Source: Massilia sp. H-1 (GTDB lineage Bacteria; Pseudomonadota; Gammaproteobacteria; Burkholderiales; Burkholderiaceae_D). From it: DNA of 64,000 nt. Under the pieces are notes generated by a model, which was not told where the DNA came from, did not search any database, and saw only the letters and a list, made by a program, of their open reading frames with translations. Position numbers and translations under genes: made by a program. Where the stretch lies: NCBI GenBank assembly GCA_024703915.1, contig CP087969.1, positions 4,712,001 through 4,776,000 on the forward strand, in the 5' to 3' direction. Shown here piece by piece: positions 34,193 to 39,805 of the stretch (position 1 is the first letter of the stretch; every line of letters begins with the position of its first letter).

Positions 34193-36335
34193 TTGTTGAA
34201 ATCCATCGCATTGCCCGTCGCCTTGCTGGGCGTTTTCGCTACCACGAACGCTGACGAAGGCCAGTGGCAGCCACACCAGCTGCCGCAACTGAAAAACGAA
34301 TTGAAGAAGGTCGGGATCACCATCCCGGCCGAGAAACTGGCCGATCTGAGCAAGCATCCGATGAGCGCGATCGTGTCGACCGGCAATTGCTCGGCCGCCT
34401 TCGTCTCGCCCGATGGCCTGATCGTCACCAACCACCATTGCGGCTACGACGCCGTGCAGCGCAATTCGACCGCTGAAAAGAATTACATCGCCAACGGCTT
34501 CCTGGCCAAGACCCGCGCCGACGAGCTGCCGGGCGGCCCGAACCTGCGCGTCTACGTGACCGACAAGGTCGAGAGCGTGACCGAGCGCGTGCTCAAGGAT
34601 CTGCTTATGGGCCATGTCCGGCCGCGCGCTATGAACAAGTCCAGTCGCGCCTGGAAGGCGCTGACGGCCGAATGCGAGACCGACAAGAACTACCGCTGCA
34701 CGGTGTCGAGTTTCCACCGCGGCCTCAGTACTACCGCATCCGCCAGATCATGATCCGCGACGTGCGCATGGTCTATGCGCCGTCCGACAAGATCGGCGAA
34801 TACGGCGGCGAAGTCGACAACTTCGAGTGGCCGCGTCACACGGGCGACTTCTCCTTCCTGCGCGCCTATGTCGGCAAGGATGGCCGTCCGGCCGATCCTT
34901 CGCCCGACAACGTGCCCTACAAGTCGAAGGACTTCCTGGTCGTCTCGGCCGAAGGCCTGAAAAGCGGCGATCCGATCCTGCTGGCTTAGCTACCCGGGCC
35001 GCACCAGCCGCTACAAGCTGCCGTCGGAAATCCGCTTCGCACGCGACGTTAATTTCCCGGCCAAAGTGGCCGAGATCAAGGCCGATAACGGCACCATCGC
35101 GGCCGCCACCCGCGGCAATGCGGGCCATGAAGTGCGCTACGCGAGCGTGGTCAAGTCCGCCAACAACGTGCTCAAGAAAACCCAGGGCCTGCTGGACGGC
35201 TTTGCCCGCACCGACATCGCCGCCATCAAGGACGCGCAGGACGCCGAATTCCGCGCCTGGTACGCAAAACAGCCAGGCCTGTCGAAGACGATGCTGGCCG
35301 AACTCGATACCCTGATCGCGGCCGACATGGCGCTCGACGAAGAGGAATTCGCCTGGGGCGTCGCCTCGACCAGCGACCTGCTGCGCAGCGCCCGCACCCT
35401 GTATCGCCTCGCCGTGGAAAACAAGAAGCCGAACGCCGAGCGCGAAAGCGGCTTCCAGGAACGCGACCAGTCCTTCATCAAGGCCCGCCTGACCCGCCTC
35501 GAGCAGTCCTATGTGGCCAGCGTGGACGAAGCGCGCTTTACCGCTGCACTGCAGCGCTTCCAGCAAGCTGCCTAGCCAAGTCCCATTCGCCGGGACTCGA
35601 TGCGCTGCTGCTGCGGCGCCGGACGCCGTGGCCGCCATGTACCGCCAGTCGCAACTGGGCGACACGGCCAAGCGCCTGGCCTGGATGGGCAAGGACACCG
35701 AGGCGTTTGCCGCGTCGGACGATCCCTTCATCCAGCTGGCCGTCAAGGGCTTCGACATTGCACGTTCGCTCGAAGAGCGCGGCAAGGAGATCGACGGTAA
35801 TCTCGAACGCGTGATCCCGCAGTACATGGCGGCCATGATCGCGTACAAGAAGTCGCTCGGCAAACCGGTCTACCCGGACGCCAATTCGACCCTGCGCGTT
35901 ACCTACGGCACCGTGTCCTCGTATTCGCCGCGCGACGGCGTCGTCAAGGGGCCGTTCACCACCGTCGAAGGGATCGTGCAAAAGCACACCGGCGTGGAGC
36001 CTTTCATCGCGCCGCAGGTGCTGATCGACGTGGTCAAACAGAAGCGCTATGGCGTGTTCAAGGATCCTGTGCTCGGCACGGTGCCGGTCAACTTCCTGTC
36101 CAGCGCCGACACCACCGGCGGCAACTCGGGTTCGGCGGTGATGAACAAGCGCGGCGAACTGGTTGGCCTCAATTTCGATTCGACCTATGAATCGGTGACC
36201 AAGGACTGGTACTTCGACAGCGCCATCACCCGCGCCATCCACGTGGACATCCGCTACATGCTGTGGGTGATGAAGGAGGTCGATCATGCGGACGACCTGC
36301 TCAAGGAAATGACGATCAAGTATCCGCGCAAGTAA
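34193..36335 (+). CDS. S46 family dipeptidyl-peptidase (DPP7/DPP11 type)
   Basis: Exported serine peptidase that removes dipeptides from peptide N-termini. The start is probably TTG (34193 or 34196), giving a signal peptide ending A-T-T-N-A. The S46 triad is visible: His in V-T-N-H-H-C-G-Y-D-A, Asp in E-V-D-N-F-E-W-P-R-H-T-G-D-F, Ser in T-G-G-N-S-G-S-A-V. Restored length is about 710 residues, normal for the family. Breaks near 34604, 34725, 34984 (GCTTAGC to GCCGGC gives L-A-G-Y-P-G-R-T), 35573 and 35615. A periplasmic or outer-membrane role in peptide feeding is likely. Confidence 0.9.
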
Positions 36336-36371: not shown

Positions 36372-36975
36372 ATGAACGAGACTCTGACTCTGCTCGGCAT
36401 TACCACCACCTATCTCGAGCTGATCTCGTTCATCCTCGCGGTCATCACGGTGGCCCTGAACATCCGCCAGCTCCACTGGGCCTGGCTGTTTTCGATCGTG
36501 TCGTCGGCCACCTATGCGGTGGTGTTCTACGATGCGCTCCTGTACGGCGACATGGCGCTGCAGTTCGTGTTTATCTCGGTCTCGGTATGGGGCTGGTACC
36601 AGTGGCTGCACGGCGGGGCGCAGCGCGCAGCGCTCGCCGTCACGACCTCGTCGGCCAGGGCCTGGGGCTGGAGCATCGGCGCCTGGCTGGCCGGTTTCGC
36701 CGTCCTCGCGCTGTTCCTCGCCCGCTACACCAATACCGACGTGCCCAATATCGACGGCTTCCTGACCATGCCGGCAGCCTGGTCGGCCAGGTCCTCCTGT
36801 CGCGCAAGAAGGTGGAGAACTGGATCGTCTGGATCGTGGTCGACATCCTCTACGTCGGCCTGTACCTGTACAAGGGCCTCACCCTGACCGCCGTCCTGTA
36901 TGGCATCTTCGTGATCATGGCTGTAGTCGGCCTGGCCACCTGGTACCGCGAAGCGAAGCGGCAGCCTAAGCATGA
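36372..36975 (+). CDS. PnuC-family vitamin transporter (nicotinamide riboside or thiamine)
   Basis: About seven transmembrane helices in about 200 residues; Y-L-E-L-I-S-F-I-L-A-V-I-T-V-A-L-N-I-R, W-G-W-Y-Q-W and N-W-I-V-W-I-V-V-D-I-L-Y-V are PnuC hallmarks. PnuC proteins are facilitators whose substrate is trapped by phosphorylation. The next gene is a NadR-like kinase, overlapping by ATGA once GCCTAAGC at 36964 is read as GCCGGC. The neighbouring TPP-riboswitch receptor raises the alternative that this is a PnuT thiamine transporter. A base is missing near 36772. Confidence 0.88.
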
Positions 36976-37489
36976 ACACGCCGCTGCGGATCGCGATCCT
37001 GGGCGCCGAGTCGTCCGGCAAATCCACGCTGGCCGCGGCGCTCGCGAGCCACTATCAGACTGTCTGGGTGCCCGAATTCCTGCGCGAGTTCGTCGATGTG
37101 AATGGCCGCGTGCCCGAGGAAAGCGACCAGTTCCCGATCGCGCGCACGCAGATGGAACGCGAGAACGAGGCTGCAGCGCGCCCTCGCAGTTTCTGTTCTG
37201 CGACACGACGCCGATGATGACGGCCTTGTACAGCCGCTGGTACTGGGGGAGGGTGGATGCGCAGCTGGCACTGCTGGAGCGCCGCCACGAGTACGCGTTC
37301 ACGCTGGTGACCGCGCCCGACAGCCCGTGGGAGGCCGACGGCCTGCAACGGGAATCGGAAGCGGTTCGCCAGACTATCCACGAGCAAGTGCTGCAGATGC
37401 TGGACGAACGCGCTATCGCTTATCTGGTCGTTACCGGCAGCCTGCCGCAGCGCGTGCAGCAGGCCGCCCGTTACATCAATCCCGCTTAG
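36972..37489 (+). CDS. NadR-like nucleoside/vitamin kinase (AAA-type ATPase)
   Basis: About 172 residues, comparable to the C-terminal kinase domain of NadR without its DNA-binding or adenylyltransferase parts. The P-loop is I-L-G-A-E-S-S-G-K-S-T-L-A-A-A-L and is followed by V-P-E-F-L-R-E-F-V and F-C-D-T-T-P-M-M-T. In NadR this domain phosphorylates nicotinamide riboside; next to a TPP-controlled receptor a thiamine kinase role is possible. A slip lies near 37175. It is coupled to pnuC, and the stop overlaps the convergent TonB receptor's stop. Confidence 0.85.
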
Positions 37490-39605
37490 AAGTCGAACTG
37501 CGCCGATACCCGGACCGTACGCGGTGCGCCCGGGAACAGGTAGCCGCCCAGCTGCGGGGTCACGTCACGCCAGTAGAACTTGTCGGTCACGTTGTCGACG
37601 CTGGCGCGCAGCGTGGTCTTGTAGCTTAGCCACGGTCATGCCGTACGCGCTGCCCAGGTCGAACACGTGGTAGCCCGGCACGAACAGCGTGTTTTGCGCG
37701 TCGAACGCCTTCTTGCCCGAATAGTGCCAGGTGCCGTTGACCTTCAGGCCTGCCACTGACGGCACGGCGTATTCCAGCACGGCGGTCGACTTGAACGCAG
37801 GCACGTTGGTGGTGCGCTTGTTGTCGACGTCGGCCTGGCCGGTGCCGCTTTGCTGCATGTGCAGCGCGAGCAGCGACAGGCTGTATTTCAGGTCGCGCGT
37901 GGCATTGCCTTGCGCGCTCAGTTCGAGGCCGCGGTGGGTCTGCTCATGCGCAGCGCACGTAGGTGTTGGTGACGTCCGTGTACTCGAAGCCCTTCTTGAT
38001 CTGGAACAGCGCGCCCGACACCTGCACGCTGTTGTTGACGATGCCCTTGACGCCCAGTTCGATCTGCTTCGAGCGGCTCGGTTCCAGCGTGACGTTCTCG
38101 TTCGTCGTCTGCATCGGGGCGGTGCCGCCGTGCTCCATGCCGTGGGCCGAGGTCGCGTAGAACATCCAGTCGGCGGCCGAAGCGTGTAGACCAGCGACAG
38201 GCTAGGCAGGGTGAAGCCGGTATCGACGAACTGCACGCCCAGCGTCTCGCGCTTGACCTGCACGCGGCGCAGGCCTGCATGCACGGCGAACTGCGGCGAC
38301 AGCGTCAGCACGTCCTGCACGATTACGGCGCGCTCTTTGTCGCGCCGCTGTTCGAGCACGGGGCCGGTGCTCAGGTTGCCCGGCGCCGGTGGCACGATCA
38401 CGTTGTGATAGATGTTGCTGGTGCTTAAGCAGGGTCATACACATAGGCGCCGAAGTAGTCGCTGCGCGACTGTTCGGTCAGGCCCAGCGTCAGCGCGTGT
38501 CCGATGCTGCCGGTCGTGAATTTACCCTGCAACAGCGCCTGGGCGCCGAACGGGTTCTTGCGCTCGCCCACGCTCTGGTAGTCGTACACGTCGTAGTCGC
38601 CGTTGGCGCAGAAGTAGGGCGCGTAGTCCGGGCTGTCGGCAACGCAGCCATACGGGAAGGCGGTGAAGTCGTCGCGCTTGAAGTTGTGCTTGTTGGCCGT
38701 CAGCGTGGCGCGCCACTGGTCGTTGAAGGCGTATTCGAAGCGCAGGCCGACGTTGCTGGTCCAGGTCTCCACCGGCTTGGCCCACGGCTGGTCGTTGAGC
38801 AGCATCTTGGGCGAGACGCCAACCGGTAGCGTGCCGCCGACAACAGGCTGGTAGCCTGGCGCGGTGATCTGCGATTTGTGCTGGTAGTCCATGTCCAGCT
38901 GCAGCAGCGCCTGCGGCGTGATCTGCCAGTCGAAGGCGCCCGAGACGAACTGGCGCTCGCCGTCCGCACCCTTGACGTAGGAACGCAGGTTTTCGGCCGC
39001 GGCATTGAGGCGGTAGCCGAAGCGGCGGTCTTCCATGCGTCCGCCCAGGTCCATCGCACCGTACACGGTGCCGCGGTCTGCGGCTTCCAGCGTCACGGAG
39101 CGCAGCGGGGTATTGGTCGGACGCTTGACCGCGTAGTTGATCACGCCGCCGGGCGTGGTCACGCCAGCCTGCATGCTTAAGCCAGACCCTTGAGGATTTC
39201 GATGCGCTCTTTGTTTTCGAGCGGGATCTGGCTGTCGCCGGAGATGGCGATGCCATCCTTGCGGTAGCTGGTGTTATTGTCGAGCATGAAGCCGCGGATC
39301 GAGAACATCTCGGCGTAACCGACGGCGTTGTACGAATCGCTGACGCTGGCATCGTATTTCATCGCTTCCGTGGTGCTGCGGATGCCCAGGTCGGCCATCT
39401 GCTCGCGGCCGATCGCGGTCACCGAGAACGGCGTTTTCAGCAGCGAGGTTTCGGAGAATCCGCCCACGCTGGCGCGGTCGGTCACGGCCCATTTGCTGGC
39501 GGTGACGACGACTTCAGGCAGCGATTGCGGTGCGGTCTGGGCTTGGGCGTGCAGGGCGAATGCCTGCATGACGGACAGGGCGATGACGGTGTGCTTCAGG
39601 TTCAT
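37486..39605 (-). CDS. TonB-dependent outer-membrane receptor (annotated type: siderophore; probably thiamine)
   Basis: Signal peptide ending H-A-Q-A-Q; plug domain with L-P-E-V-V-V-T-A-S-K (TonB-box region), S-I-R-G-F and E-R-I-E-I-L-K-G-L-A-G; a 22-strand-type barrel ending R-V-S-A-Q-F-D-F with the terminal Phe expected for BAM recognition. About 705 residues. Homology groups it with siderophore receptors, but a TPP riboswitch lies in its leader, so thiamine or a precursor is the better guess. Breaks: GCTTAAGC 39175 and 38423, GCTTAGC 37624, and slips near 38185 and 37950. Confidence 0.9.
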
Positions 39606-39707
39606 GGTGTGCTCGTGTTACGCACGGACGTGCCGGTGCGTTGCTTATCAAAAAAGCCGGAGCCAACGTGGGGGAGCAAACAAAGGAGGGACCTACTTTG
39701 CGCTTTC

Positions 39708-39783
39708 CTTCGCTGGCATTATCCAGATCAGGTACGGAGGGTATATCTCACCCGGAACTCGCGTTCCAGGACCCCTAGCGAAG
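39708..39783 (-). promoter_or_regulatory. TPP riboswitch (THI element)
   Basis: On the minus strand the conserved TPP core is present: TGAGATATACCC, then ACCTGATCTGG, then ATAATGCCAGCG, closed by a perfect 7-base P1 stem (39777-39783 with 39708-39714). It ends about 100 bases before the TonB receptor ATG. This class binds thiamine pyrophosphate and normally lowers expression of thiamine synthesis or uptake genes. TAAAAT at 39788-39793 (minus) may be the -10 box. Confidence 0.93.
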
Positions 39784-39805
39784 GCAGATTTTAGCACATG
39801 CGAAT

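Follow-up and report, generated by a model that had tools for sequence, protein, structure and literature searches.

A TPP-riboswitch-led TonB receptor facing a PnuC-kinase pair: a likely thiamine salvage module in Massilia and its relatives

Within a 64 kb stretch of the genome of Massilia sp. H-1 (CP087969.1; ‘the window’ below means this whole stretch), we analysed a locus in which a TonB-dependent receptor gene on the minus strand converges on two plus-strand genes, one encoding a transporter of the PnuC family and the other a NadR-type kinase. The leader of the receptor gene contains a thiamine pyrophosphate (TPP) riboswitch. We compared the locus with relatives in the genus, the family, the phylum and a set of named genomes, and consider it likely that it is a thiamine salvage module, consisting of the receptor, a PnuT-type transporter and a kinase that phosphorylates thiamine. 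The features in question are these:

39688-39786, minus strand: TPP riboswitch aptamer in the leader of the receptor gene (Rfam RF00059).
39650-39687, minus strand: conserved leader element 3′ of the aptamer, which can pair with the 3′ strand of the aptamer and ends in a U-run.
37486-39605, minus strand: TonB-dependent receptor gene, frameshifted; proposed thiamine receptor (Pfam; siderophore receptor by sequence family).
36372-36969, plus strand: PnuC-family transporter gene, frameshifted, with its N-terminal part in 36372-36797 and its C-terminal part in another frame; proposed PnuT (PF04973).
36972-37489, plus strand: gene for a stand-alone NadR-type (RNK-fold) P-loop kinase, frameshifted, with no NMNAT domain; proposed thiamine kinase (AAA_28 and a family profile).

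The stop codons of the opposing genes share two bases: the kinase gene ends in TAG at 37487-37489 on the plus strand, and the receptor gene ends in TAA, which is the complement of 37486-37488. All three genes are broken by frameshifts in the window. As they are intact in 16/16 relatives from the genus, and as the genome, a single 5.84 Mb contig, has a completeness score of only 48%, these frameshifts are likely sequencing indels. The nearest intact relative among the 16 is that of Massilia sp. CF038 (L076), which is 81% (PnuT), 87% (kinase) and 82% (receptor) identical to the pieces in the window; the kinase of locus L203 is identical to that of L076.

Across the 64 kb window, only the TPP aptamer reaches an Rfam gathering score. 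It spans the complete RF00059 model (positions 1-105 of 105) with 65.6 bits, where 54.3 is required (E 1.2e-10), and a scan of the whole genome places it at the identical position. The first-pass annotation of this DNA had described a full TPP aptamer in the receptor leader, a PnuC operon with no aptamer of its own, and a stop-to-stop arrangement of the receptor and the PnuC-kinase pair; the Rfam scan bears out the first two descriptions and the overlapping stop codons bear out the third. Besides this aptamer, only one other TPP riboswitch was found in the genome, in the leader of the thiC operon. An alignment of 10 leaders from three genera shows that the element 3′ of the receptor-linked aptamer is conserved. 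In its lowest-energy structure (-27.9 kcal/mol for this piece) it pairs with the 3′ strand of the aptamer and is directly followed by the U-run, so the resulting terminator-like hairpin is predicted to compete with the aptamer. The folding stability of the complete leader is no greater than that of shuffled versions (z -0.68). Scans of the locus gave no promoter-like site (0.4 expected) and one terminator-like site (2.4 expected).

Pfam recognizes a Plug domain (PF07715) in 39180-39605 and a barrel domain (PF00593) in 37568-38401, both on the minus strand, and has no match for the middle piece of the receptor (38428-39174). Away from pnuT, nine TPP sites were examined in eight genomes. In six of these genomes (G116, G192, G077, G142, G172 and G182) TPP stands directly 5′ of an orthologue of the receptor, and three distant sites have no receptor (L288, L290 and L291; the second site of G182 and those of G078 and G034). 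These sites bear on a reading in which the receptor really takes up siderophores and its TPP control is incidental. Such a reading draws on the L076 receptor, which scores 331.9 with TIGR01783 (TonB-siderophor; cut-off 223.5) and whose best sequence relative in the PDB is FemA. The TIGR01783 label, however, is that of a sequence subfamily and not of a cargo, and the orthologues in the six genomes keep a TPP aptamer of their own far from pnuT. On this evidence of TPP control, we regard a siderophore cargo as very improbable.

The transporter is a PnuC-family protein by several measures. PF04973 is matched by both fragments in the window (36372-36797 and 36797-36970, plus strand) and, at 174 bits, by the intact transporter of a relative, which also exceeds the cut-off of the NCBIfam PnuC model TIGR01528; the PnuC structure 4QTN is related to it by sequence (E 2.3e-7). 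Our tree comprises 88 PnuCs, and the characterized PnuTs of Shewanella woodyi and Bacteroides are not among them. All 33 TPP-linked PnuCs of the family fall into one clade (support 97/87), as do three same-clade rows and two solo rows. Its sister group consists of three PnuCs from a different family in the order (100/99 for the clade and sister group together), and the NAD-linked PnuCs, including the paralogues from the genus, constitute a separate clade (100/100). Since the other orders of the class contribute TPP-linked PnuCs at two further places in the tree, the TPP link probably arose on several PnuC lineages. At one conserved helix position, Asp is present in 36/36 aligned PnuCs of the TPP-linked clade and Asn in 9/9 NAD-linked paralogues from the genus.

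The survey proposed in the first-pass annotation, of the co-occurrence of receptor, PnuC, kinase and TPP riboswitch, was run, and the link is kept throughout the genus and in most pairs of the family. In each of the 17 genomes of the genus, 2.7-3.3 kb separate a TPP site from a PnuC gene; one of these sites (in G012) scores 48.3 bits, below the Rfam cut-off. In 7 of the 17, no PnuC was found besides the TPP-linked one. For the 195 genomes of the family, counts of TPP and PnuC are lower bounds, taken among the matches listed. A kinase match occurs in 90 of these genomes. The kinases counted as high-scoring number 84, namely those that reach 190 bits and one further kinase with a split gene. All lie within 1.5 kb of a PnuC gene, and at least 61 of the 84 pairs have a TPP riboswitch within 10 kb, among the matches listed. 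Among those same matches, TPP is within 12 kb of 0/68 PnuCs that have no kinase within 12 kb. When 12 of the 23 exceptions were scanned with Rfam, nine had TPP within about 14 kb, and a further one (G104) lies at a contig end; with the six genomes above, this accounts for all of the exceptions but G104 and seven others. We did not use a Fisher comparison of 70/84 with 0/68, which treats related genomes as independent and sets a re-examined side against one that was not.

A pattern search of named genomes gave 590 matches, of which 492 encode relatives, and we counted features in the best 80 of these 492. They come from Massilia, Telluria, Janthinobacterium, Duganella, Rugamonas, Undibacterium and Herbaspirillum, among others, with one from Methylobacillus. 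PnuT is present at all 80 loci, the receptor at 64 and TPP at 61, and every one of the 61 riboswitches is at the 5′ edge of the receptor gene; three of the 19 loci with no TPP have a receptor that is cut off by the end of the locus. The genes between the receptor and pnuT vary among genera, which argues, at the level of sequence comparison, that the linkage is not a mere frozen gene order. Most genomes still keep the pair close to the receptor. Ten proteins at six loci were inspected, and none is known as a product of a thiamine gene: they are sigma-70, GGDEF-EAL, lyase, nitroreductase, HDOD, beta-lactamase-fold and hydrolase proteins and a second TonB receptor, with one protein having no match. 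The ten include a protein of locus L081 that adjoins pnuT in a stretch with no receptor.

The kinase has the fold of the NadR kinase domain. In the window, AAA_28 (PF13521) is found in 36972-37187 on the plus strand, and a family profile matches the C-terminal piece, in frame, at 37160-37483 (193.4 bits). The kinases of intact relatives are 172-173 amino acids long and contain AAA_28 only, with no NMNAT domain; the NadR model TIGR01526 gives 94.7 bits on such a kinase, against a cut-off of 341, with the match confined to the kinase half of the model. A predicted model of an intact relative (172 amino acids, pLDDT 91.2) matches NadR kinase domains (1LW7, 8X7F and 6GYF) with Z of 20.3-21.9 over 162-172 residues, 8X7F being the top match at 21.9, and the next group consists of nucleoside kinases (Z 15.7). 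In the kinase tree, 36 kinases of the family and four from another family of the order make up one clade (100/98) that is apart from the NadRs, and the NAD-linked kinases of the genus group with other NadRs. Ten positions set the 36 clade kinases apart from 20 NadR-type kinases that we picked for comparison. Leu37 is found in 36/36, where the NadR-type kinases have Gly in 20/20 (within an E-Y-G-R motif), and Gln126 in 36/36, where they have Arg in 20/20 (after D-G-x), although the Arg/Gln call depends on the alignment of a loop. The kinase fragments in the window carry the clade residues. By sequence comparison, then, this kinase has the NadR fold but belongs to a clade parted from NadR. It also differs from the two thiamine kinase families with which we compared it: the kinases of two relatives had no match to ThiK (APH fold, TIGR02721) at E 0.001, those of relatives had AAA-type Pfam matches only and thus no PF04263 TPK domain, and PF04263 had no match in the window genome.

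These results can be set against the most conventional reading of the pair, namely that it salvages nicotinamide riboside and stands beside a TPP-controlled receptor by chance. The names would fit, since the transporter exceeds the cut-off of the NCBIfam PnuC model and NadR is the nearest relative of the kinase. However, the family retains the TPP link of this pair while PnuCs that lack the kinase have none, among the matches listed, and a different PnuC already occupies an NAD operon. This second PnuC of the genome (L007, G000:C1:5087739-5088274) is preceded by pncB, nadE and a nadM-Nudix gene in an operon-like row, and from that position it is a separate candidate for nicotinamide riboside transport. 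Seven of nine PnuC paralogues fetched from the genus adjoin a NadR-type kinase, and the one such kinase tested has an NMNAT part. By contrast, the kinase of our locus has no NMNAT domain and its signature residues are unlike those of NadR, and in the seven genomes of the genus mentioned above, no other PnuC was found. We judge nicotinamide riboside salvage by this pair to be quite unlikely.

A further line of evidence comes from the gene slot beside other PnuCs. Listed TPP and PnuC coordinates of 234 genomes of the phylum were compared by eye, and in nine of them, all from other orders of the class, TPP is followed on the same strand by PnuC 2.3-2.7 kb on. An open reading frame (ORF) of receptor size lies between the two in loci L173-L179, and in both of those tested (L173 and L175) Pfam identifies it as a TonB receptor. 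The ORF following the PnuC encodes an APH-fold kinase in six of seven cases tested. In five of five such proteins sent to NCBIfam, ThiK is the first (two proteins) or second (three proteins) match, below the cut-off, and the other match is a model for a guanitoxin-pathway kinase (GntI). Within the family, TPK was found in 1/195 genomes (G087, L183), where it passes the NCBIfam cut-off and directly follows PnuC. The slot beside these PnuCs would thus hold enzymes that act, or probably act, on thiamine, and we infer from this the strongest pointer to thiamine as substrate of the NadR-type kinase. ThiL is present in 17/17 genomes of the genus (over the cut-off in 16; in pieces below the cut-off in the window genome). 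Given ThiL, the ThiK-like kinases that hold the slot in other orders, and the finding of TPK in a single family genome, the likeliest product of the NadR-type kinase is thiamine monophosphate, and ThiL would finish this to TPP. Separately, in locus L189 (G043) a PnuC with no NadR-type kinase has an APH-family gene directly upstream, and this may be another PnuC-kinase pair.

The cargo could also be a thiamine precursor or breakdown product (hydroxyethylthiazole or hydroxymethylpyrimidine) that the set imports and phosphorylates. TPP riboswitches control genes for thiamine precursors as well as for thiamine, and the uptake set coexists with a thiamine synthesis operon. In this thiC operon, thiC and thiE match NCBIfam, and thiG and thiD were recognized by eye in the translations, the thiG piece having no NCBIfam match. 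Judging from these genes and from ThiL, the cell probably makes thiamine and can convert thiamine monophosphate to TPP; the uptake set is thus salvage on top of synthesis, and since the operon is present no auxotrophy is implied. The enzymes in the kinase slot of other PnuC loci, on the other hand, are ThiK-like or TPK, named for activity on thiamine, and the characterized PnuT carries thiamine, according to passages of PMC7749635. A precursor as cargo therefore seems unlikely to us.

Thiamine is the cargo that the first-pass annotation had favoured. It had proposed thiamine rather than an iron chelate for the receptor, PnuT as the identity of the PnuC-like protein, and possible trapping of thiamine by the kinase. 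Each proposal is supported, the substrates themselves being deduced: TPP stays with the receptor even away from pnuT, the TPP link follows this one PnuC lineage while NAD-linked paralogues are in another clade, and the kinase clade stands apart from NadR with its own signature residues, while ThiK-like or TPK enzymes fill the same slot elsewhere. We are inclined to go a step further, and think it rather probable that the stand-alone NadR-fold P-loop kinases of Massilia, Janthinobacterium, Duganella, Undibacterium and relatives are a third thiamine kinase, unrelated to ThiK and TPK, which would have been derived from a nicotinamide-riboside kinase while its PnuC partner also switched to thiamine.

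Several observations weigh against the thiamine reading. The riboswitch cannot separate thiamine from its precursors as cargo, the Rfam scan of the window shows no aptamer upstream of pnuC, and the nearest relatives of the kinase, by fold and by sequence, are nicotinamide riboside kinases. Two of the 12 scanned exceptions (G116 and G192) have neither TPP nor a receptor beside the pair, and among the 80 loci from named genomes, 16 lack a receptor in the locus DNA examined. With regard to the slot, the tested ORFs come from seven of the nine loci (all but L175 and L180), the seventh of them (L181) is transposase-like, and the PnuC next to TPK is on a long tree branch and has no TPP nearby among the matches listed. 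Outside the family, scans of 12-18 kb at 15 kinase loci, 12 of which include a PnuC, showed no TPP; three of these loci (L128-L130), with the nearest PnuC relatives, stand beside enolase with the kinase, and no TPP was found there. As TPP was found at 0/15 of these loci, we do not extend the thiamine reading outside the family, and the combination of stand-alone kinase and PnuC was rejected as a universal thiamine marker. Two residue-based arguments were likewise dropped. The Asn-to-Asp change in PnuC was rejected as a diagnostic and kept only as a clade trait, since Asn is retained in 3/9 other TPP-linked PnuCs and Asp occurs in some NadR-linked PnuCs. Loss of Trp256 and Tyr292 of Haemophilus NadR, which we take to be the nicotinamide-stacking pair (no text confirming this was found), was rejected as proof of a new substrate: the clade lacks both residues, but so do NAD-linked NadRs of the genus, seven of which have Pro and Ala (6/7) or Ala and Gln (1/7) at these positions.

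Some neighbouring observations are recorded here for completeness. Loci L193 and L194 hold close PnuC relatives near enolase, with no kinase match within 1.5 kb. In L134-L141, from another family of the class, a PnuC occurs with a distant NadR-type kinase of the stand-alone kind. The two are 4.5 kb from each other in L141, the DNA scanned at these loci shows no TPP, and a match to the TwoAYGGAY RNA is located on the opposite strand near the pair in L139. In the window, 36 bp separate pnuT from the end of a large upstream gene (34193-36335, plus strand) that is peptidase-like and presumably of the S46 family; 15/16 relatives from the genus have a homologue near pnuT, more than 2 kb off in three of them (L070, L072 and L075).

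Our analysis establishes the riboswitch and the gene families, the conservation of their linkage, the separate NAD-linked paralogue, the kinase clade and, for an intact relative, the predicted kinase fold, and on these the following scheme of inferred substrates and regulatory response could be built. At low TPP, the riboswitch would be relieved and the TonB-dependent receptor made, and the receptor would carry thiamine, with TonB, across the outer membrane to the periplasm. PnuT, as inferred from its family, would equilibrate thiamine across the inner membrane by facilitated diffusion. The NadR-type kinase would then phosphorylate the hydroxyethyl alcohol of thiamine, trapping it as thiamine monophosphate, which ThiL would convert to TPP. 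The kinase step would give direction to the facilitated diffusion, as NadR presumably gives direction to PnuC transport.

Much of this scheme is already known or predicted, as passages of three published studies make clear: PnuT is a thiamine transporter, and some PnuT genes have TPP riboswitches (PMC7749635); a TPP-linked receptor and PnuT of Bacteroides act in thiamine uptake (PMC5613172); and predicted thiamine TonB receptors are encoded beside PnuT (PMC2771747). The new part, as far as these passages go, is the NadR-type kinase partner. The OMthi and pnuT-tnr3 genes of Bacteroides likewise combine a TPP-controlled TonB receptor, PnuT and a phosphorylating enzyme beside a synthesis operon, in the passages seen of PMC5613172. 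The Bacteroides enzyme is Tnr3, described as a thiamine pyrophosphorylase, whereas Massilia has a NadR-fold kinase and a pnuT-kinase pair with no aptamer of its own. The L173-L179 operons of other orders share TPP, a gene of receptor size, a PnuC-type transporter and a kinase slot with our locus, but they are arranged on one strand, their PnuCs belong to other clades and, in six loci, the kinase is ThiK-like with an APH fold. Tnr3, for its part, presumably carries a TPK domain. With respect to NadR (1LW7, 8X7F and 6GYF), the kinase domain fold is common to both, but the Massilia-type kinase is a stand-alone protein of 172 amino acids with no NMNAT domain, has Leu for Gly and Gln for Arg, and is linked to TPP and not to NAD. 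Similarly, the transporter shares its family with PnuC 4QTN but is in a clade apart from NAD-linked PnuCs, with Asp for Asn. A literature search over titles, the starts of abstracts and passages, with subscription papers mostly outside its coverage, met no account of a NadR-like thiamine kinase or of the Massilia locus, and we do not claim that such an account is absent from print.

The family models used assign the receptor to siderophores, the transporter to nicotinamide riboside and the kinase to the NadR type. If our interpretation is true, all three labels name the wrong nutrient in a large group of betaproteobacteria, and the hidden route of thiamine uptake would alter models of which bacteria make vitamin B1 and which take it. 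The locus would also offer a clean case of a transporter-kinase pair that moved jointly from one cationic vitamin to another.

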